From contig JAFLBZ010000005.1 of NCBI GenBank assembly GCA_017303715.1, forward strand, positions 62,001-126,000: a DNA stretch of 64,000 bases, given 5' to 3'. The translations under genes and the position numbers were made by a program. Below the pieces are notes generated by a model that worked only from the letters and a program-made list of their open reading frames with translations, was not told the DNA's origin and did no database searches. Shown here piece by piece: positions 45,683 to 59,730 of the stretch. Numbering within the stretch: position 1 is the first letter of the stretch; every line of letters starts with the position of its first letter. Source of the DNA: Rhodothermia bacterium (GTDB taxonomy: Bacteria; Bacteroidota; Rhodothermia; Rhodothermales; UBA2364).

Positions 45683-46303
45683 ATGAATGATTTTGATGAA
45701 TTTAAGGGTCTTCATACCAATACCCAAACCGAACAACAGCCGATTTTATTGCGCAAATTAAAACATGTAGAAATCCCGCGTTCATCTTTGCAGGAAATTT
45801 CTTTAATGAAAAGAAGCCCCATTGTTGCGGTTTTGGACAATATACGATCGGTTCATAATGTTGGGGCTATTTTTAGAACATCTGATGCCCTTTTAGTGGA
45901 GCAACTTTGCCTTTGCGGGATCACCGCCACACCGAACACACATCCGGAACTTCAGAAAACAGCATTAGGCGCACAAGATACGGTTCCGTGGGCTTACTAT
46001 TCACACACAACTGATGCATTGGTCGCACTAAGAAAGGCAGGATACCAAATTGCTGCATTAGAGATTACCAACCTTTCCAGAATGATACAAAGTGTTCAAC
46101 AGGACGAATTTCCCATCGCTTTGGTCGTAGGTCATGAGGTTTTTGGCGTTTCGGACGAAGCCATTGCGCTGTGCGACTTCGCACTCGAATTGCCACAATT
46201 TGGGGTAAAGCAGTCGCTTAATGTCTCGGTTGCTTACGGAATTGCCCTATATGGATTGGTAAATCAGTTGGACATTTTTACATCATCTGGGCTTTCACGG
46301 TAA
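45683..46303 (+). CDS. SpoU/TrmH-family RNA 2'-O-methyltransferase
   Basis: The 206-residue protein has the SPOUT knot motifs: LDNIRSVHNVGAIFRTSDA (motif 1), ALVVGHEVFGVSDEAI (motif 2) and LPQFGVKQSLNVSVAYGIALYGL (motif 3). It transfers a methyl group from SAM to a ribose 2'-OH, in a tRNA or rRNA not determined by sequence. The start at 45683 is only 6 bases from the divergent lipoprotein start, so each gene's promoter must lie inside the other. Its 3' end overlaps that of meaB by 40 bases. Confidence 0.9.
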   Translation: MNDFDEFKGLHTNTQTEQQPILLRKLKHVEIPRSSLQEISLMKRSPIVAVLDNIRSVHNVGAIFRTSDALLVEQLCLCGITATPNTHPELQKTALGAQDTVPWAYYSHTTDALVALRKAGYQIAALEITNLSRMIQSVQQDEFPIALVVGHEVFGVSDEAIALCDFALELPQFGVKQSLNVSVAYGIALYGLVNQLDIFTSSGLSR

Positions 46304-47277
46304 CGCCTTAACAAGGCTTTTGCAGCATTTCCGGGCACTTTTTTTCCTTCTTTTACAGCTTCTTCATAATCTTCTAAGGCTGCACGTACAGCCGGATGGG
46401 TATAAAAGTGTTGTAACACGGCGGCCTCCATGATCTGATGAAGCCAATAGGACGATTGCTCGGTTCTTCTTGTGTCCAACCAACCATTTTCCGTCACCAA
46501 TTTATGGTGGTTCTGGATCATTTCCCACACCTCTGTAATTCCAGTTCCCTTCAGAGCAGAACACGTCCGAACTTCTGGAACCCAACCAGATTCATTTTCC
46601 CTAAAGAGATGCAAAGCGCGTTTATAGGAAATTCGGGCCGTTTCTGCGGGTAATCTGTTGTCACCATCTGCTTTATTGATCACAACACCATCAGCAAGTT
46701 CCATAATGCCGCGCTTAATCCCTTGTAATTCGTCACCAGCACCTGCAAGCATGAGCAACAAAAAAAAGTCAACCATTGAGGCAACTTGGGTTTCCGACTG
46801 CCCAACCCCAACCGTTTCAACCAAAATGACATCAAAACCCGCCGCTTCGCAAAGCAACATCACTTCTCGTGTTCTGGGAGCAACGCCACCCAAAGCACCT
46901 CCGGAAGACGTTGGCCGAATGAACGCATTTGGATGTTTTGACAGATCTTCCATTCGGGTTTTATCGCCCAAAATGCTCCCGCGCGTTTTCTCACTGCGAG
47001 GATCAATCGCCAAAACAGCAACCTTATGCCCCAACTCGGCGACATGTAAGCCAATGGCTTCGATAAAAGTACTTTTGCCCACACCCGGAACGCCCGAAAT
47101 TCCAATACGGGTACTGTTTCCGGTGTAGGGCAAACATTGCTCTAATAAGGATTCTGCAAGGTCTTGGTGCGTCGCCGAGGTACTTTCAATGAGGGTAATG
47201 GCGCGGCTAAGCATTATCCTATTCCCCGAAAGAATTTCTTCACGGAAGGTGTCTATAGCCGGTAATGGAAGTCGCAT
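46264..47277 (-). CDS. meaB: Methylmalonyl-CoA mutase GTPase chaperone MeaB
   Basis: The 337-residue GTPase has a P-loop GVPGVGKST (62-70), the metal-binding DVILVETVGVGQSE and a guanine-specificity NKADGDN. MeaB (ArgK) gates cofactor loading and protects methylmalonyl-CoA mutase from inactivation. Its presence supports the mutAB genes at 12.9-16.8 kb, although it is not in their operon here. It lies downstream of the acyl-CoA dehydrogenase on the same strand, separated by a probable terminator. Confidence 0.95.
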   Translation of the reverse strand: MRLPLPAIDTFREEILSGNRIMLSRAITLIESTSATHQDLAESLLEQCLPYTGNSTRIGISGVPGVGKSTFIEAIGLHVAELGHKVAVLAIDPRSEKTRGSILGDKTRMEDLSKHPNAFIRPTSSGGALGGVAPRTREVMLLCEAAGFDVILVETVGVGQSETQVASMVDFFLLLMLAGAGDELQGIKRGIMELADGVVINKADGDNRLPAETARISYKRALHLFRENESGWVPEVRTCSALKGTGITEVWEMIQNHHKLVTENGWLDTRRTEQSSYWLHQIMEAAVLQHFYTHPAVRAALEDYEEAVKEGKKVPGNAAKALLRRYRESPDDVKMSN

Positions 47278-47343
47278 ACAATTTTTTGTTGGAAAATAGG
47301 ACTTTGGTCATGTCCGCAATCGGTAAAATTTCCGTAAAGCAAG

Positions 47344-47387
47344 GAAAAAGAAAAGGAGCCATCCCGAATCAACAGAAAAGCCCCTTT
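47344..47387 (-). terminator. Probable terminator of the acyl-CoA dehydrogenase gene
   Basis: On the minus strand AAAGGGGC pairs with GCTCCTTT (one G-U pair) around a 20-base loop, followed by TCTTTTTCC, 27 bases after the stop codon. Confidence 0.55.
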
Positions 47388-47413
47388 CTTTTTATGCCCT
47401 TTCCCAAAAGTGA

Positions 47414-49225
47414 TTATTGAATCCCAAAACACCATCCACCATTGGTACGGATGTTCTCGGCCACCATTCGACGTGCCGCTTTAACGTTAATGGAGTGTAT
47501 TTGAGCGAGTTGTTGTACGGCCAAAACTGCCATGTCGAGGGCTTCACCCTCCATAAAAGAAGCAAGTGCATCAATGGCCGCATGTTGGCACTTCCGTGTA
47601 GAATCCTGCAAAACCAAGTCCAACATGGCTTCATATACCACCATTGCCGCCCTATCTTTAACTTCACGAAGTTTTTCTACCCGAAGTAAAACCGACTCAG
47701 ACATATAGATTTCGGTAATTATATCGGCAAGATTCATCAATATCTCTTGTTCTTCTTTCAATCTAATGCCCCCCTCTGTTTGCGCCGTAAGGGCATTCCC
47801 AAGGGTGAGTAAAAAGACTTTTTTAAGTTGCTCGGTCTGGTATTGTGCCAAGGCTTGACGTTCAATTGGCCTATCAGAGCCTACCCGACCAGACGATAAT
47901 TCGTCTTGAATAGCAAAAATAGGCGTGAGCAAGTCAATTTCCCCTTTCATAAACCTACGTAATAACATGTCCACCATTAATAAGCGGTTTATTTCGTTCG
48001 TCCCCTCAAAAATTCGGTTTATTCTGCTATCCCGATAAGCACGCGCAGCAGCATATTCTTCGCTAAAGCCAATTCCGCCATGAATTTGGACGTTTTCATC
48101 CACACAATAATCCAATACTTCCGAACCTAGAATCTTGAGGATTGAACATTCTATCGCATATTCTTCAGCAGCATCCAACATTGCTTCGGTATAAGATTTT
48201 CCTGAAGCCATAGAAGCCTCTTTCTGTAATTGCATTTGGTTGGACACACGATAAACCGCGCTTTCGCTTGCAAAAATGCGGGTGGCCATTTCCCCTAATT
48301 TATATTGAATGGCACCAAAATTACCGATCGGCTGGCCAAATTGATACCGTTCATTGGCGTATTTGGTTGCGTCTGTCAAGACGCCTTTAGACCCACCTGT
48401 ACACAAAACGCCCAATTTGTAGCGCCCAATATTAAGCACATTAAAGGCAATTAAGTGACCTTTGCCAATCTCGCCCAATACCTGATCTTGTGGAACAGCG
48501 ACGTTTTCAAAGAAAACTTGGCGCGTGGACGAGCCTTTAATCCCCATTTTGTCTTCTTCAGCGCCCAATATTAAACCGGGTGTACCCTTTTCTACGATAA
48601 AAGCAGTAAATTTTTCACCATCAATCTTGGCAAAGACAATAAAAACATCTGCAAATCCCGAATTGGTGATCCACATTTTTTGACCATTCAGGATATAATG
48701 CGAACCATCATCGCTTTGTACGGCGCGTGTTTTGGCCGCAAGTGCATCCGACCCACTTCCGGGTTCCGTCAAGCAATAAGCCGCTTTGAGTTCTCCAGAA
48801 ATCAGGCCGGGTAAATATTTTTCTTTCTGTGCTTCCGTTCCGAAATACAAAATGGGCAACATACCGATCCCTGTATGAGCTGCTAAGGCCACACTAAAAG
48901 ACCCCGCAGGCCCCATGACATCAGCAATAATCGTATTGGTATTGGTGTCTAAGGCCGTTCCGCCATAAACCTCTGGCATGTGCGACCCCAACAAGCCCAA
49001 TTCGCCCATTTTTTGGAGCAACTCCGGCGTAACACCCTCTATTTGCTTCTCAATCTGTTCCCTTTTCGGAAAAACCTCCTGTGTCAAAAAGTCTTTGGTC
49101 ATCTGCCAAATCATTTGTTGTTCTTCGTTGATCTCTTCCGGAATGAACACTTCTTCAGGCGTACTTCCAGTTGTTAAAAAGACACCTCCTTTTAAGAGAT
49201 GCTGGGTTTGGGCTGTCTGCATCAT
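47414..49225 (-). CDS. Acyl-CoA dehydrogenase, VLCAD/ACAD9-like
   Basis: The 603-residue enzyme has the flavin-dehydrogenase signatures YCLTEPGSGSDA and MWITNSGFAD, the QIHGGIGFSEEYAAARAYRD region and RINRIFEGTNEINR with the catalytic Glu of the EGTNEINR type. The extra C-terminal helical domain of about 180 residues matches very-long-chain enzymes (VLCAD, ACAD9). It starts beta-oxidation by dehydrogenating acyl-CoA and passes electrons to ETF. It is probably monocistronic, with meaB further downstream. Confidence 0.92.
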   Translation of the reverse strand: MMQTAQTQHLLKGGVFLTTGSTPEEVFIPEEINEEQQMIWQMTKDFLTQEVFPKREQIEKQIEGVTPELLQKMGELGLLGSHMPEVYGGTALDTNTNTIIADVMGPAGSFSVALAAHTGIGMLPILYFGTEAQKEKYLPGLISGELKAAYCLTEPGSGSDALAAKTRAVQSDDGSHYILNGQKMWITNSGFADVFIVFAKIDGEKFTAFIVEKGTPGLILGAEEDKMGIKGSSTRQVFFENVAVPQDQVLGEIGKGHLIAFNVLNIGRYKLGVLCTGGSKGVLTDATKYANERYQFGQPIGNFGAIQYKLGEMATRIFASESAVYRVSNQMQLQKEASMASGKSYTEAMLDAAEEYAIECSILKILGSEVLDYCVDENVQIHGGIGFSEEYAAARAYRDSRINRIFEGTNEINRLLMVDMLLRRFMKGEIDLLTPIFAIQDELSSGRVGSDRPIERQALAQYQTEQLKKVFLLTLGNALTAQTEGGIRLKEEQEILMNLADIITEIYMSESVLLRVEKLREVKDRAAMVVYEAMLDLVLQDSTRKCQHAAIDALASFMEGEALDMAVLAVQQLAQIHSINVKAARRMVAENIRTNGGWCFGIQ

Positions 49226-52657: not shown

Positions 52658-53632
52658 ATGGCAAAAAAATCAACCTCTCCCACCCCCAAAAAAATTGGGA
52701 TCCTCCGTGGAATGGAAACCACTTTTCCAGATGCACTTATCCCCTACATCAATGAACATTATGGCGATCGCGGCGTCGTCGCCGAGTTTTGTAGTTTAGA
52801 TGCTTTTTCGCAAGATGAAGCACCAACCTATGACTTAATTTTGGATCGGATTTCCCATGAAGTCCCCTTCTATCGCTCTTACCTGAAGGCTTCGGCCATC
52901 AAAGGGACATACGTTGTGAACAATCCTTTTTGGTGGAGTGCCGACGATAAGTTTATCAACAACTTTGTTGCGCAGCAAGTGGGTGTTGCCGTACCCAGAA
53001 CCGTGATTCTCCCGCATAACCAACATCCACCGAATACCCAGACCACTTCTTTCCGTAACTTAAAATACCCTTTAGATTGGCAAAAGGTCTTTGATTACAT
53101 TGGGTTTCCGGCTTTTATGAAGCCTCATGATGGTGGTGGCTGGCGAGGGGTGACGAAGGTTAACAACCAAGAGGAATTCTTTGCGGCCTACAATGAGTCT
53201 GGAACCGACTGTATGATGTACCAAGAAGGGATTGAGTTCACCGAATATTTCCGTTGCTATGGTGTTGGGCGCAAAAAAGTACACATCATGCGTTACAATC
53301 CAGCAGCACCACACCATTTACGGTATAAAGATGTGCCACAAGAGCCTATCGCGCCGGCCCTTTTTGCCAAAATCGAACGTGATGTCTTGGCACTTTGCAG
53401 CGCCTTGGGCTATGACTTAAATACGGTTGAGTTTGCCGTCCGAGATGGGATTCCATACGCCATTGACTTTATGAACCCCGCACCAGATGGCGACTACCAC
53501 TCGGTAGGCCACGAAAATTTTGAATGGATCGTTTCCAATATGGCGGAATTTATGGTCGAAAAAGCTTTGAGCCATAAAGGAAAACCTATTACCTTTTCTC
53601 CGGGTAAAGCCTTAGATAAAAAAGGTATTTAA
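52658..53632 (+). CDS. RimK-like ATP-grasp ligase
   Basis: The 324-residue protein is an ATP-grasp enzyme of the peptide-ligase type: ATP-binding FPAFMKPHDGGGWRGVTKV near residue 150, MMYQEGIEFTEYFRC and the metal-binding TVEFAVRDGIPYAIDFMNPAPDGD at the C-terminal side. Such ligases join an amine to a carboxylate through an acyl-phosphate. It is the first gene of the cluster and lies 9 bases before a second, circularly permuted ATP-grasp gene. Substrates are unknown. The N-terminal 20 residues are basic and Pro-rich. Confidence 0.85.
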   Translation: MAKKSTSPTPKKIGILRGMETTFPDALIPYINEHYGDRGVVAEFCSLDAFSQDEAPTYDLILDRISHEVPFYRSYLKASAIKGTYVVNNPFWWSADDKFINNFVAQQVGVAVPRTVILPHNQHPPNTQTTSFRNLKYPLDWQKVFDYIGFPAFMKPHDGGGWRGVTKVNNQEEFFAAYNESGTDCMMYQEGIEFTEYFRCYGVGRKKVHIMRYNPAAPHHLRYKDVPQEPIAPALFAKIERDVLALCSALGYDLNTVEFAVRDGIPYAIDFMNPAPDGDYHSVGHENFEWIVSNMAEFMVEKALSHKGKPITFSPGKALDKKGI

Positions 53633-53641
53633 CGATAAAGG

Positions 53642-55057
53642 GTGAAGGTAAAATCGCCGTTTCACCGTTCATTTAATCAAGCGACCACCAATTCCATGCA
53701 ACAGCGCTTATACGAGGCCATCAATCATTATCATGGCCTGATGTCGGATAATTTGGCCGAGGCGGAATCTCAGCTATTACGCTTGGCAGAACTCCAACAA
53801 GAGGAGGAGACCTTGTTCGGAGACCGACCGTTAACAACCACACTCCGTCCTGCTTTCATTACCGAAAGCACCTATACCCGAATGCAAGATGTCATCTATC
53901 TATTCAGACAGGCGGTTATCAGTATTGCAAAAAACTTCTTTAACGACCAACATATCCTCAAAAACATTTTATGTCTGGAGGATTGGGAAATAGAACTTGC
54001 GGCGATTCCTACAAAAATTGCCCGTTTCTCGGTATTATCTCGAATGGACTCCTTTGTGACCGAAAATGGATTCAAATTTGTAGAACTAAACGGCGAGAGT
54101 CCGGCTGGCTTGGCTTATAACCATCATTTACACAAGGTTTACAAACAGTTGCCCATATTCCAGAAATTTGAGAAACAATTTCCGGTTCGGTATATCTCGC
54201 CGTTAGAGCATACCATCCAAGCTATGCTACGTTCTTACCACGAGGAGTTTGACGGAACCGAAGAACGGCCCGCCTTCTGTATTGTGGATCACTTGGATGT
54301 ACCTACCATTCATGAGTTTAATCTCACCAAGGCATATTTGGAGCGAATGGGCTTCCCTTGCGAGATTGCACATCCCAAAGACCTTGACTTACGCGATGGG
54401 TGGATTTATGCAAATGGCCGTAAGATTGATATACTTTACCGTCGCTTACTCATGAATGAGTATTACGACATTAAGGACGATTGTAAAAACTATTTAGAAG
54501 GTTATCGTCAACAAAAAACGTGTTATCTAAACACGTTTAGAACCAAATTGGTTCACAAAAAATCAATTTTCGAGTTTTTGACGGATGAAACCTATACCAG
54601 AGTCCTGACTGCCGAACAAGCAGAGGCGATTCGTCATCATATCCCTTGGACCCGCATTTTGCGTGACCGAAAAACCAAATTCCGAGGCTTACCCATAGAC
54701 TTGGTTCCTTTTGTTCGAGCAAATAAACAGTTTTTTGTAGTGAAGCCGAACGATGAATATGGTGGTAAAGGGGTTACATTAGGCTTTTCAGCATCTCAAA
54801 GTGAATGGGATGATGCCATACAAGATGCACTGGCAAATGGGCCATTTGTGGTTCAAGAAGTGGTGGACATCCACCGTGAGCCATACTTGATGCAGTTGGA
54901 CGGTACGTGGAAGATGGTTCCAGTTGTTGTGGACTTAGACCCTTACGTGAACGGCCCGCTCATGGGTGGTTGTCTCACCCGAATTTCTTCCTCCAACCTT
55001 GCAAATGTTACCGCAGGTGCAGGCTCACTTCCAACCTTCATTTTGCGATATAGTTAA
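53642..55057 (+). CDS. Circularly permuted ATP-grasp ligase
   Basis: The 471-residue protein starts with GTG (53642); an internal ATG at 53696 is the alternative. Central FVTENGFKFVELNGESPAG and the later ATP-binding KPNDEYGGKGVTLGF, FVVQEVVD and GGCLTRISSSNLANVTAGAG follow the order of glutathionylspermidine-synthase/COG2308-like permuted ATP-grasp ligases, where the nucleotide lobes are swapped. These make amide bonds between small peptides or polyamines. It is the second gene of the cluster and ends at a terminator 55 bases later. Confidence 0.75.
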   Translation: MKVKSPFHRSFNQATTNSMQQRLYEAINHYHGLMSDNLAEAESQLLRLAELQQEEETLFGDRPLTTTLRPAFITESTYTRMQDVIYLFRQAVISIAKNFFNDQHILKNILCLEDWEIELAAIPTKIARFSVLSRMDSFVTENGFKFVELNGESPAGLAYNHHLHKVYKQLPIFQKFEKQFPVRYISPLEHTIQAMLRSYHEEFDGTEERPAFCIVDHLDVPTIHEFNLTKAYLERMGFPCEIAHPKDLDLRDGWIYANGRKIDILYRRLLMNEYYDIKDDCKNYLEGYRQQKTCYLNTFRTKLVHKKSIFEFLTDETYTRVLTAEQAEAIRHHIPWTRILRDRKTKFRGLPIDLVPFVRANKQFFVVKPNDEYGGKGVTLGFSASQSEWDDAIQDALANGPFVVQEVVDIHREPYLMQLDGTWKMVPVVVDLDPYVNGPLMGGCLTRISSSNLANVTAGAGSLPTFILRYS

Positions 55058-55112
55058 GTCTAAACAACCTTGTTTTATGGGGTTCAAATTAACATCCGAT
55101 TGATTCATGGAG

Positions 55113-55150
55113 AAAAAAGGGCTTGCGGCTTGCCTGTAGGCTCTTTTTTT
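55113..55150 (+). terminator. Intrinsic terminator inside the ligase cluster
   Basis: A 12-bp stem (AAAAAAGGGCTT with AGGCTCTTTTTT, two wobble pairs, 13-base loop) ends in T residues. It divides the cluster into a two-gene and a three-gene unit. It may also work in the other direction because of its flanking A/T runs. Confidence 0.7.
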
Positions 55151-55207
55151 ATGTACGTTGGCAGGATTCTCAACATGCAGAAGCCCCTTGCTTGAAAAAC
55201 AAATCAT

Positions 55208-56065
55208 ATGGAGTCTATAAGTTCAAGACCTTTACGGGTTGCCATCCTTGATATGAACAACAATCATCCCAATTTGGGATTGAATTGCATCCGTACAATG
55301 GTCAAACTGCAATCCGGTGAAATTGAAAATGTTTTACTGGATTATGATATTTTTGATGTACGTGCCAAAGATGAAGTTCCGGATCTTTCCTACGACATCT
55401 ATATCTCCTCTGGTGGTCCGGGCAGTCCTTACGACGGTGAAGGAATGGATTGGGAAGAAAAATACTTTGAATGGCTCCATGATGTTTGGGCATATAATTT
55501 AGACCATGAGCCAGAAGCGAGAAAGCATGTTTTCTTGATTTGCCATTCTTTTCAGATGGCGGTTCGGTATTTCAAACTTGCTCAGGTTGTCCCACGCAAA
55601 GGCGAGTCTTTTGGCATCTTCTCCTGTTCGATGACGGAATCGGGGAAATCCGAGCTTATATTTGAAGGACTTACGGATCCTTTCTATATTGCAGATTTCA
55701 GAAAATGGCAGGTGATCCAACCCAACCTTGAACGCATTTCTGGTATGGGTGCCGAGATTCTTTGTATCGAGCAAGATCGCCCGCATGTGCCCCTTGAACG
55801 CGCCATTATGGGTATTCGGATTACGCCAGAAATTATTGGCGTGCAATTTCACCCCGAAGCTGATCCACCCGGCATGGCATGGCATTTTATTCAGCCAGAA
55901 CGGCAACAGGCCATTAAAGAAAACTTTGGAGAAGAAAAATACCAGCGGATTATGCGCCACTTGTACGACCCCAATTACCTCTTTAAAACTTATAATACGG
56001 TACTGCCGAATTTTCTAAAAAATGCTATTTTGTCTTTACGTCCGCAAATGTTAGTTGAGGCTTAA
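55208..56065 (+). CDS. Class-I glutamine amidotransferase-like protein
   Basis: The 285-residue protein has the triad of GATase1: a nucleophile-elbow Cys112 in LICHSFQM, His215 and Glu217 in GVQFHPEADPPG, and an oxyanion-type ISSGGPGSP near residue 68. The elbow differs from the usual G-x-C-x-G, since Leu and Ser-Phe replace Gly, but the catalytic residues remain. It would release ammonia from glutamine for transfer to a substrate. It is the first gene of the second unit of the ligase cluster, 11 bases before the esterase gene. No dedicated synthetase domain is attached. Confidence 0.8.
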   Translation: MESISSRPLRVAILDMNNNHPNLGLNCIRTMVKLQSGEIENVLLDYDIFDVRAKDEVPDLSYDIYISSGGPGSPYDGEGMDWEEKYFEWLHDVWAYNLDHEPEARKHVFLICHSFQMAVRYFKLAQVVPRKGESFGIFSCSMTESGKSELIFEGLTDPFYIADFRKWQVIQPNLERISGMGAEILCIEQDRPHVPLERAIMGIRITPEIIGVQFHPEADPPGMAWHFIQPERQQAIKENFGEEKYQRIMRHLYDPNYLFKTYNTVLPNFLKNAILSLRPQMLVEA

Positions 56066-56076
56066 GCGATATTGAG

Positions 56077-57033
56077 ATGACAGAAGAAGAAATCCTGAAC
56101 CGACACCGGCAACACCTGCATGGTAGTCTAAAATCCATCCGGCTTAAGTCTAATGCCTTAAGGGTTTATAAGAATTTTTATGTCTATGAACCCCCGTATT
56201 ATGGTCATCCTTTGTTTCCCCAAGAAACCTCTTTGCTCTACCTTTTTCGAGGACACGAACGCGAATATGTCAACTTGGCGGAAGACGGTTCCAGAAAAAT
56301 GGTCACCACTATAGAGTTATTGGATCAACTCATAGTAGCGGGCGTTTTACCACCAATGGTTGCCATCTTGCCGGGCCTAAACAGCAACAACAACCATGTG
56401 CCCTCGCTTGGAATTGATATGGCGGGAACCTGGGAACGCGGCCTGAAGGGCTTGGGCACGGGCAAGTTTTGGGAGTATCTCACCCAAGAATTGTTTCCGT
56501 ATGTGGAAACCCGCTGGCCGATGGGTAAGAACGGCGTTCGATTGGGTGCGGGCTTTTCCTTGGGCGGATATACCGTCAGTATGATTGCTTCCCGGGTGCC
56601 AACGTTTTTCCATCATGTCGGGATTTATGATGGTACGTTGATGTGGCCACACCAAAATGACCCACGCTATCCGGAGCCGGAAGACGGCGTTTGGCGATCG
56701 GCTCGTCTTTTTGATGCAGCCTTAGGTACACCACGAGATGCAAACTTTATGCACCAATGGAACCCAACCGATCTTATTCTTGAGGCTGCGAACGACAAAT
56801 TGGCAAAACTGCGCAAAATCACCTTCTGGGTAGCGAGTACCCCTTTCGATGGGATGCGGGGCAATCGAGAACGCTGCGAATATTTCGTGCAAATGCTTAA
56901 AGATAAAAACATTCCGGTTGGTTGGCAGACAGTTCCATTCGACCCCGCTGCCGAACACAATTGGTATTGGAACAATCTTTTTGTAATCCGCTTCGTAAAA
57001 TCTGTTTTTAGCTTAAAATCTTCAGATAAATAA
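56077..57033 (+). CDS. Esterase D-like alpha/beta hydrolase
   Basis: The 318-residue protein begins with a hydrophilic N-terminal stretch and a core with GFSLGG around Ser161 (GxSxG elbow) and a late AAEHNWYW containing the likely catalytic His. The acid residue is not assigned. It has no signal peptide. Such esterases can cleave or form ester and amide bonds, including trimming of activated peptides. It lies between the GATase and the third ATP-grasp gene, with an 11-base gap upstream and 101 bases downstream. Confidence 0.8.
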   Translation: MTEEEILNRHRQHLHGSLKSIRLKSNALRVYKNFYVYEPPYYGHPLFPQETSLLYLFRGHEREYVNLAEDGSRKMVTTIELLDQLIVAGVLPPMVAILPGLNSNNNHVPSLGIDMAGTWERGLKGLGTGKFWEYLTQELFPYVETRWPMGKNGVRLGAGFSLGGYTVSMIASRVPTFFHHVGIYDGTLMWPHQNDPRYPEPEDGVWRSARLFDAALGTPRDANFMHQWNPTDLILEAANDKLAKLRKITFWVASTPFDGMRGNRERCEYFVQMLKDKNIPVGWQTVPFDPAAEHNWYWNNLFVIRFVKSVFSLKSSDK

Positions 57034-57134
57034 CCCTAATCTGTAAAGTACCTCCAATTTGGGGGATGCTTAAACAAAATACCTTTCTCTATAATCCAAA
57101 TCATTTTATATAAAAATACCCAATAGGCACCTTC

Positions 57135-58313
57135 ATGCACCCAAAAACCATTCTTTGTGTAGCCAGTTATTTTAAAGGCGCACGATTTATTCAAGCCGCC
57201 AAAGCACAAGGCTGGCGCGTTTTACTTCTTACTTCCCTGTCTATCAAAGACGAACCTTGGCCTTGGGCCTCTATTGATGACGTCTTTTACATCCCGGACG
57301 ATAACCACAAATGGCATATGCCCGATGTCATTAAAGGCGTAAGCCATTTGGCACGCCGTGAGCGGTTGGATAAAATTGTACCCTTAGATGACTTAGACGT
57401 AGAAAAAGCCGCTGAACTCCGCGAGCATTTGCGGATACCAGGCTTAGGGACAACACAAACCCGATTCTTTAGGGACAAATTAGCCATGCGCGAACAGGCA
57501 AAGGCGCATGATATTTTGATTCCAGAATTTATTCACGCGCTTCACTATCAAACTATTACTGATTTTGCAAACCGCGTACCGGGGCCTTGGGTCGTAAAGC
57601 CTCGCTCTGAAGCTGGTTCGATGGGCATCAAAAAAGTTTATAACACCGAGGAATTGTGGTCTGTCGTGCATGGTTTAGGAGATGACCAGTCCGATTTTTT
57701 GATTGAGCAATTTATTCCGGGTGATATCTTTCATGTGGATTCGATTTTTGTAAATGGGAAGCCTGTTTTTCAATTGGTCCACCAATACGAAAATCCCCCC
57801 CTTGCAGTCACCCAAGGTGGAGGTGTTTTTTGTAGCCATAATGTATTGTATAAATCGGAAGATGATACCGCTCTACGTGGGCTAAATAAATTGATCCAAA
57901 AAACGATGGGTTTAAAAAATGGTGTTGCCCATACCGAATTTATTAAAGCACATCACGACGGAAGATTTTATTTCTTAGAAACAGCAGCGCGTGTTGGTGG
58001 GGCACACATCGCCGATATGATTGAAGCCTCGGCAGGCATTAACCTTTGGGAGGAATGGGGTAAGTTGGAGTGTTTGCACGAAGACGAGGCATATGAATTG
58101 CCTAAGATTCGAAAGGAATATGGCGGTATTCTTATTACCCTGTCTAAAGTCGAACATCCCGATTATAGCGATTATACCGATCCTGAAATTGTGTGGCGGA
58201 TGCACGAGAACCGTTACCATGCAGGCTTAATTGTCCGGTCTAACGAATTGAATCGGGTAAAAAACCTTCTAAATGACATTTCAGATCGTTTTAAAGAGGA
58301 TTTTTGTGCATAA
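57135..58313 (+). CDS. ATP-grasp ligase, carbamoyl-phosphate-synthase-like
   Basis: The 392-residue ATP-grasp protein has the pre-ATP domain (VASYFKGARFIQAAKAQGWRV), ATP-binding WVVKPRSEAGSMGIKKV near residue 157, and metal-binding HTEFIKAHHDGRFYFLETAARVGGAHI. This layout is like carnosine synthase, BtrJ and biotin-carboxylase-like ligases that join amino acids. It has a different family type from the first two ligases in the cluster. It is the last gene on the plus strand and ends at a strong terminator against the convergent isoaspartyl peptidase gene. Confidence 0.85.
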   Translation: MHPKTILCVASYFKGARFIQAAKAQGWRVLLLTSLSIKDEPWPWASIDDVFYIPDDNHKWHMPDVIKGVSHLARRERLDKIVPLDDLDVEKAAELREHLRIPGLGTTQTRFFRDKLAMREQAKAHDILIPEFIHALHYQTITDFANRVPGPWVVKPRSEAGSMGIKKVYNTEELWSVVHGLGDDQSDFLIEQFIPGDIFHVDSIFVNGKPVFQLVHQYENPPLAVTQGGGVFCSHNVLYKSEDDTALRGLNKLIQKTMGLKNGVAHTEFIKAHHDGRFYFLETAARVGGAHIADMIEASAGINLWEEWGKLECLHEDEAYELPKIRKEYGGILITLSKVEHPDYSDYTDPEIVWRMHENRYHAGLIVRSNELNRVKNLLNDISDRFKEDFCA

Positions 58314-58345
58314 TCAACACCGATAACCCAACCTACATTAGTCAG

Positions 58346-58371
58346 GGCCAAGTTTTTTCTTGGCCTTTTTT
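58346..58371 (+). terminator. Intrinsic terminator after the ligase cluster
   Basis: Perfect stem GGCCAAG/CTTGGCC (58346-58352 and 58359-58365) is followed by six T residues, 33 bases after the last ATP-grasp stop codon. Confidence 0.92.
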
Positions 58372-58384
58372 ATGCTAATTGTGC

Positions 58385-59359
58385 TTAGATGGCTGTCCAG
58401 ATGGGGCTTTTTAAGTGCCATCCTCCCCTTGCCATACGGGGAGTTGTATAGGCCCATCCACCATTACCTTGGTGATCAAGAACAATTAAGCCCGCCGTTG
58501 CATCAATCTTCTGCTCATGAATAAAGGTATGTCGCATCAAACCAAGTTGCTCGGTTGCGGCATCACTTGGTGATAAACCATTTGCAACCCGTAAAGCAGT
58601 CCGGGTACATAACTGAATGGCTAAAATCCCTTCGCCCCAACCTGTTGCGCTACAAGCAACCAACCTGTCTGCAAAATATCCAGCGCCGGGTACGGGAGAA
58701 TCTCCAACACGACCAGCCAAAGTAAAAGGTGCACCACCCGTAGAGGTTCCCGCTGCGAGGTTTCCATCGGTATCCAGGACCACACATCCTACGGTTCCTC
58801 TTGGGTTCTCTTCGCCAGAAAAAGCCAGACTGGTGTGGAATTGGCGACGTTGACGCAACTCCTCGAAACGCCGATATTCGCGTTCTGTTGTGAAAAAGCC
58901 CGATTTTACGGGATGAAAACCCATCGCAACGGCATATCGCTCAGCCCCTTCCCCAACCAAAAACTGACTTTGCCCACCACCGTTTTCCATAAGATTATGT
59001 GCTACACTGATAGGGTGCTCGATCGTTTTGGTACCAGCAACAGCACCAAAAGCCATCGTTTTCCCACACATTATTCCTGCATCTAGTTCGGCTTCGCCAT
59101 CTTGATTCAGTACGGCTCCATAACCCGAATCGAACGCTTGGTGTTGTTCTAAAACACTCACAACCTCCCGCACCACCCATGTTGCATTTTTGTTTTGCAA
59201 TAACAGTCTTCTACCACGTTCAAGAGCCAGCCGCATTCCTTCTTCGTGTGCCTCCGTTTCGTAAAAAGGGATATCCCAAGCGCCACCATGTACCAACACC
59301 ATAGGGCCAGAACCTGCAATTGAACCACGGCGAATACCAACTTTAAAAGAGTTTGACAT
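58385..59359 (-). CDS. Isoaspartyl peptidase/L-asparaginase (Ntn hydrolase)
   Basis: The ATG at 59359 (MSNSFKVG) is preferred over a TTG 15 bases upstream that would overlap yraN. The 324-residue proenzyme has VHGGAWDIP near the start, GYGAVLNQDGEAELDAGIM, and the autocleavage site GTVG with nucleophile Thr189, plus AGTSTGG and the SATGWGEG substrate region. It is made as a proenzyme, splits into two chains and hydrolyses beta-aspartyl (isopeptide) dipeptides and asparagine. It is the last gene of a minus unit (histidine kinase, yraN, this gene), facing the ATP-grasp cluster. Confidence 0.9.
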   Translation of the reverse strand: MSNSFKVGIRRGSIAGSGPMVLVHGGAWDIPFYETEAHEEGMRLALERGRRLLLQNKNATWVVREVVSVLEQHQAFDSGYGAVLNQDGEAELDAGIMCGKTMAFGAVAGTKTIEHPISVAHNLMENGGGQSQFLVGEGAERYAVAMGFHPVKSGFFTTEREYRRFEELRQRRQFHTSLAFSGEENPRGTVGCVVLDTDGNLAAGTSTGGAPFTLAGRVGDSPVPGAGYFADRLVACSATGWGEGILAIQLCTRTALRVANGLSPSDAATEQLGLMRHTFIHEQKIDATAGLIVLDHQGNGGWAYTTPRMARGGWHLKSPIWTAI

Positions 59360-59361
59360 GC

Positions 59362-59730
59362 TTAATTTGCCCAAAAGGCGTCTTCAAAATGTTCGATCTG
59401 GATCGCTTCGCCATGCTGCATCACGATTGAAACAACATCAAAGCGGCACTTGACCTCTTCCATCTTTTTCTGATCTAAGTATAGGGCTGCTGCCCGAATT
59501 AAACGATCCCGCTTAACAGCATGAAGAGCCTCGGCAGGATGACCATATTGGAGGTTTTTACGGGTTTTAACTTCCACAAAAACAAGGAACTGCCCATCGG
59601 GAGATTGGCAAACCAAGTCTAATTCCAAATGCCCAATACGGTAATTCTGATGCAAAACTTGGAATCCTTTTTGGCGCAAAAAACGTTCCGCAACTGCCTC
59701 ACCTTTATCTCCGGTTTGTTTATTTCCCAT
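59362..59730 (-). CDS. yraN: YraN family (UPF0102) nuclease-like protein
   Basis: The 122-residue protein has the YraN layout with GEAVAERFLRQKGFQVLHQNYR, HLELDLVCQS and FVEVKTRK, a PD-(D/E)xK-like core in which E..D...EVK are the candidate metal-binding residues. Its role is unclear although a nuclease fold is accepted. It lies between a histidine kinase (1-base gap) and the isoaspartyl peptidase (2-base gap), so the three are translated from one message. Confidence 0.93.
   Translation of the reverse strand: MGNKQTGDKGEAVAERFLRQKGFQVLHQNYRIGHLELDLVCQSPDGQFLVFVEVKTRKNLQYGHPAEALHAVKRDRLIRAAALYLDQKKMEEVKCRFDVVSIVMQHGEAIQIEHFEDAFWAN

Follow-up and report, generated by a model that had tools for sequence, protein, structure and literature searches.

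The window analyzed here, a 64,000-nucleotide stretch from the 4.35-Mb genome of a Rhodothermia bacterium, carries five adjacent genes (A to E), among them three ATP-grasp-type ligases. The locus raises the question of whether these genes form a single system and, if so, what kind of molecule it might make. An earlier note on this sequence had described five co-directional genes; our check of the open reading frames found all of them on the plus strand, with the same order and coordinates. The intergenic gaps measure 9 bp (A-B), 150 bp (B-C), 11 bp (C-D), and 101 bp (D-E). The internal terminator also proposed in that note was confirmed by sequence and RNA folding as a terminator-like hairpin with a 17-bp stem, a 5-nt loop, and a T run in the B-C gap (55112-55150, plus strand). 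RNA folding revealed a further terminator-like hairpin 3′ of E (58344-58367, plus strand; z -3.0). Given these two hairpins, A-B and C-D in the window could form separate units or attenuated ones. In several relatives, B and C are separated by a short gap or none. By eye, a MeaB-like GTPase gene and an acyl-CoA dehydrogenase gene lie upstream of the cluster on the minus strand (46264-49225).

Gene A (52658-53632, plus strand) encodes a 324-amino-acid ATP-grasp ligase that serves as the signature of the system. The Pfam matches of B, C, D, and E all lie above the cutoffs, while A was recognized only below them, through matches to ATP-grasp (0.0015), the RimK family (5e-5), and D-Ala-D-Ala/Ser ligases. 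The label RimK-like, given to A in the earlier note, has such matches behind it but is approximate, since they are subthreshold. The predicted structure of A was poor (pLDDT 59). Syntenic homologues share 66 to 92% identity with A, and the ATP-grasp-type residues K155, E258, D270, and N273 are invariant among them. Searching GTDB contigs with A yielded 560 confirmed related stretches, the best 80 of which belong to Rhodothermia, Ignavibacteria, Chlorobiota MAGs, and Acidobacteriota, at 55 to 72% identity.

The order A-B-C recurs in many Rhodothermia genera. Related clusters headed by A are present in Ignavibacteria, Chlorobiota MAGs, and Acidobacteriota; the order outside Rhodothermia is a small esterase (F), A, a YbdK-type carboxylate-amine ligase (GCS2), an M29 peptidase or C, and then a protein that we refer to as H. 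The YbdK-type ligase matched the NCBIfam equivalog PRK13515 above its cutoff and PF04107 at 6e-65, and the M29 peptidase matched PF02073 at 7e-14. The window does not show the wider cluster in full: esterase F lies outside it, as does the YbdK-type ligase that relatives carry. We found no GCS2 match in the window's genome (G000) or its congeners at the depth searched; this ligase is present in the clusters of other lineages. Two loci unite most of these parts. A Bryobacteraceae locus (L100) has the single cluster K-F-A-GCS2-M29-H-E, in which K is a second esterase, and a Rhodothermales locus (L154) has E-K-F-A-B-GCS2. The window set can be mapped onto L100, with A and E each matching their namesakes, B corresponding to H, C in the M29 slot, D corresponding to K, GCS2 missing, and F moved elsewhere. 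The gene set includes at least two ATP-grasp carboxylate-amine ligases that are syntenic and co-inherited, and the synteny across phyla rules out a chance clustering of unrelated genes. As a separate observation, two A matches of equal score (G238:C1:2470361 and 2930881), and likewise two M29 matches, occur in Terriglobus roseus with a spacing of about 460 kb, pointing to a large duplication.

Gene E (57135-58313, plus strand; 392 amino acids) had been described as CPS/carnosine-synthase-like. The ATP-grasp assignment held (ATP-grasp_4, 1.5e-13), but profile matches placed E nearer to L-amino-acid ligases (4wd3 at 8e-25, also BacD). Active-site-like residues are conserved. Linkage of E to A was first seen only in the window's genus, which left the option of an unrelated downstream gene. 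We examined co-occurrence in three groups of genomes. In 199 Acidobacteriota genomes, A was detected in 59 and E in 33; E occurred in 33 of the 59 A-positive genomes and in 0 of the 140 A-negative ones (Fisher p 8e-22, a value that ignores phylogeny). Of 40 Rhodothermales genomes, 18 carry A, and these also carry F (18/18), B (17), and C (16). Strong E matches were found in 14 of the 40, 13 of them A positive; the remaining one has F and C, on separate contigs. Among 22 A-positive genomes of other lineages, 15 have E, with matches better than 1e-130. Outside the window's genus, E is mostly unlinked to A, and the second esterase is likewise linked in a minority; in four Rhodothermales genomes (L144-L147), E stands divergent from esterase K. 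The co-occurrence, together with the clusters at L100 and L154, rules out E as an unrelated downstream gene. That E belongs to the system of A, even where unlinked, is strongly supported. The view of the earlier note that the genes form one system is strongly supported by synteny in two phyla and by phyletic co-occurrence, the unlinked E included. The A-B-C order and the co-inheritance of A and E recur in other genomes, but E is usually unlinked. A gene that by eye looks asparaginase/isoaspartyl-peptidase-like (58385-59374, minus strand) is convergent with E and neighbors E in congeners L031 and L032 as well; L153 has another fragment of this family about 7 kb away from F.

Gene B (53642-55057, plus strand) codes for a 471-residue circularly permuted ATP-grasp ligase that matched CP_ATPgrasp_2 in Pfam at 2e-9. 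It also matched PDB entry 3n6x, titled putative glutathionylspermidine synthase, at 1e-9 and, with a profile, at 3e-11. K368, the motifs PND and YGG, D431, R447, and N455 are invariant in 10 homologues. An alternative start, an ATG 54 bases downstream, coincides with the position at which the congeners begin. Orthologues of B with 52 to 91% identity occur in genera of the window's order and class, and A-B-C are collinear around them. Protein H of the wider cluster (about 395 amino acids) has no Pfam match and aligns with B across 357 columns (hhalign 93.9%). H is probably a circularly permuted ATP-grasp protein, a fold call that comes only from this profile comparison. That B simply replaces GCS2 is an explanation weakened by L154, which carries B and GCS2 together.

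B is also a remote homologue of the circularly permuted ATP-grasp proteins of COG2308 operons (hhalign 99.7%; 22 to 28% identity). However, those operons have their own alpha-E and transglutaminase-like genes, which are absent at A-E, and they occur without A, C, and F. The partner families of the distant B homologues (f5 and f6) were found neither near A-E nor in syntenic relatives. Membership of B in a COG2308 system is ruled out by its neighbors and by the level of identity. Six of the seven loci with distant B homologues (L042-L048) show a conserved set of three genes that resembles a COG2308/alpha-E/transglutaminase operon. A lone B relative (L041:7181-8743; 35% identity) from another class of the phylum stands beside an argC-like gene; A and C are not nearby.

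The role of C bears most directly on the chemistry of the system. Gene C (55208-56065, plus strand) encodes a stand-alone class-I GATase-fold protein of 285 amino acids, which matched PF00117 at 6e-8. The unusual LICHSFQ elbow remarked on earlier is real: all 13 homologues aligned have Cys112, His113, His215, and Glu217, and Ser114 is nearly invariant. The Cys-His-Glu triad (C112/H215/E217) is intact even in the most divergent of the 13. The structure model of C (pLDDT 90.8) resembles GATase-fold structures with Z of about 22, and C has both the class-I GATase fold and the triad. Its best structural matches, at Z 21 to 23, were gamma-glutamyl peptidase 1, SMU.1228c, DnfC, tm1158, and homoserine succinyltransferases. 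Synthase GATase subunits scored about 18 to 20, a gap that partly reflects length and is not decisive for function.

We then compared the genes that occupy the slot after the second ligase. Of the 74 loci at which 5 kb or more of sequence follows A, 35 hold the M29 peptidase in this slot and 21 hold C, and in none are both present. C accompanies B in Rhodothermia and takes the place of M29 in Ignavibacteria (L069 and L079); a divergent C does so in Thermoanaerobaculia-type loci (L072 and L085). The neighbors of C are B or GCS2, and in other lineages the M29 peptidase stands there instead. In genome-wide searches of the genomes checked, close M29 relatives (at least 61% identity) were confined to M29-type genomes; the C-type genomes checked had no M29 proteins or only distant ones (about 30% identity). 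Because C exchanges with M29 in this slot and its model matches stand-alone GATase-fold enzymes, we predict that the role of C may be amide hydrolysis and not ammonia donation, a reading that we favor only moderately. The fold itself does not tell the two roles apart, since the model also scores high against homoserine succinyltransferases and synthase GATase subunits. Moreover, the mutual exclusivity of C and M29 follows lineage, so that replacement by an unrelated activity is possible.

Alternatively, C could be a genuine glutamine amidotransferase supplying ammonia to one of the ATP-grasp ligases, giving a product with a terminal carboxamide. Carbamoyl-phosphate synthetase is one example of an ATP-grasp synthetase that works with a GATase partner. 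The intact triad and the PF00117 match are in line with this role, as is the high structural rank of DnfC, which is annotated as a glutamine amidotransferase. Nevertheless, a peptidase replaces C in the same slot, the elbow is without the usual flanking glycines (CHSF, not CxG), and no reliable GATase-synthetase fusion was seen. We regard ammonia donation as possible but rather unlikely. The GATase assignment of the earlier note stands as to fold and triad; the supply of ammonia is doubtful, given the M29 slot and the stand-alone-type model. An apparent 783-amino-acid GATase-ligase fusion at L107 was not used, as its N-terminal part looks out of frame.

The remaining enzymes are esterases. D (56077-57033, plus strand; 318 amino acids) is a PF00756 alpha/beta-hydrolase (2e-11) with a GFSLGG elbow, whose Ser and His are conserved in 11 homologues; it is homologous to esterase K of the relatives (hhalign 97.8%). 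F is a small PF00756 esterase just upstream of A, found within 5 kb in 74 of 94 loci. The best F homologue of the window's genome, 54% identical, is located on a separate contig (G000:C1:92366-93070). Next to the start of F in this genome, a murF gene (L153:9118-10419, minus strand; TIGR01143 above cutoff) comes to its end. In two Balneolia loci (L037:11105-12804 and L039:12316-14060), an ABC transporter-like ATPase and permease, identified by eye, lie just upstream of F and form a possible exporter. A mutase-like protein (RFVTAxSLFDGHDAxINIMRRIL) is encoded near F or A-C in three genera (L153:4924-8292, L158:13052-16630, and L040:9582-13094).

ATP activation of carboxylates and their joining to amines are established for the families of A, B/H, the YbdK-type ligase, and E. 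A small amide- or peptide-type product made by ATP-grasp ligases is plausible. What we observed is which genes are present, how they are arranged and co-inherited, the mutually exclusive slot, and the conservation of active sites; the reactions that follow, their sequence, and the kind of product are inferred. A and B would convert carboxylates to acyl phosphates and make one amide bond after another; the YbdK-type ligase and H would work alongside A in Acidobacteriota and Ignavibacteria. C would then most likely cut an amide or gamma-glutamyl bond in a trimming or deprotection step, the presumed job of the M29 peptidase in Acidobacteriota. Esterases D and F could remove an ester or acyl group from an intermediate, and E could add or preform an amino-acid unit as optional tailoring. 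On balance, we lean slightly toward a conserved biosynthetic system, independent of NRPSs, whose product is a small amide-linked metabolite of the peptide or gamma-glutamyl type, with A-E as its form in Rhodothermales.

Two other explanations would use the same enzymes differently. The ligases could attach amino acids or peptides to a protein or carrier, in the manner of RimK or LysX, with C or M29 removing the tag. The pairing of ligase and peptidase is typical of tagging systems, A has its weak RimK-family match, and B is related to the COG2308 family, found with alpha-E and transglutaminase-like genes. We consider tagging unlikely: E resembles free-amino-acid ligases, and the clusters showed no obvious gene for a carrier, precursor, or acceptor, nor a conserved small ORF of the kind expected for a graspetide or other RiPP precursor, in a comparison that was systematic for ORFs of 60 to 80 amino acids and longer. 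The second explanation is a catabolic or detoxifying route, in which an incoming amine or acid is glutamylated or otherwise capped by ligases, converted, and then set free by hydrolases. Putrescine breakdown by PuuA/PuuD works through gamma-glutamylation and a GATase-fold hydrolase, and the cluster does contain a YbdK-type ligase, hydrolases, and esterases. Since the clusters have no conserved oxidase, dehydrogenase, or aminotransferase, this route appears improbable, still more so than tagging.

A more specific form of the biosynthetic reading is that Rhodothermia, Ignavibacteria/Chlorobiota MAGs, and some 30% of the sampled Acidobacteriota species have in common a pathway to a conserved, never-isolated small amide-type metabolite or cofactor, possibly gamma-glutamyl, in which the GATase-fold and M29 enzymes are interchangeable deprotecting hydrolases. 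We put this forward tentatively, as a proposal that may well prove wrong. If it is true, abundant and poorly understood soil and aquatic bacteria share a conserved small-molecule pathway, and the C/M29 swap is a natural experiment that sets GATase-fold against M29 enzymes in one pathway slot. The gene set would also be a source of new amide-bond ligases.

Among known systems, bacilysin (BacD) and dapdiamide (DdaF) are products of NRPS-independent ATP-grasp peptide pathways. In phosphonoalamide biosynthesis (PnaB/PnaC), several ATP-grasp ligases likewise build small peptides independently of an NRPS (PMC11867202). A-E resemble these pathways in having multiple ATP-grasp ligases, with E nearest to L-amino-acid ligases, but no warhead-forming genes were seen with A-E; the circularly permuted ATP-grasp protein, the GATase-fold protein, the two esterases, and the cross-phylum conservation are features of their own. 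Glutathione and glutathionylspermidine synthesis (GCS2, GshB, and GspS type) is similar in that the wider cluster has a GCS2-type ligase, an ATP-grasp ligase, and a circularly permuted one, and in that B matches 3n6x. The GCS2-type ligase, however, belongs to the YbdK-like group (PRK13515) and is missing from the window's genome at the depth searched, and the likeness is one of enzyme kinds. Gamma-glutamyl peptidase 1 of Arabidopsis shares the fold and catalytic triad of C (Z about 22, 3.0 Å over 231 residues), but this and other stand-alone class-I GATase-fold enzymes are 14 to 17% identical to C, which has its own CHSF/Y elbow and an extra helical C terminus. In butirosin side-chain assembly and in the PuuA/PuuD route, a ligase adds a gamma-glutamyl or amide group that a hydrolase later removes; they share with A-E this add-then-remove logic only, and no gene set. 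A literature search returned no paper describing the gene set; it did not cover the 2009 amidoligase survey (Iyer et al.), which may list it. ATP-grasp small-peptide systems as such are known; the gene combination, its breadth, and the exchange of C with M29 look new.
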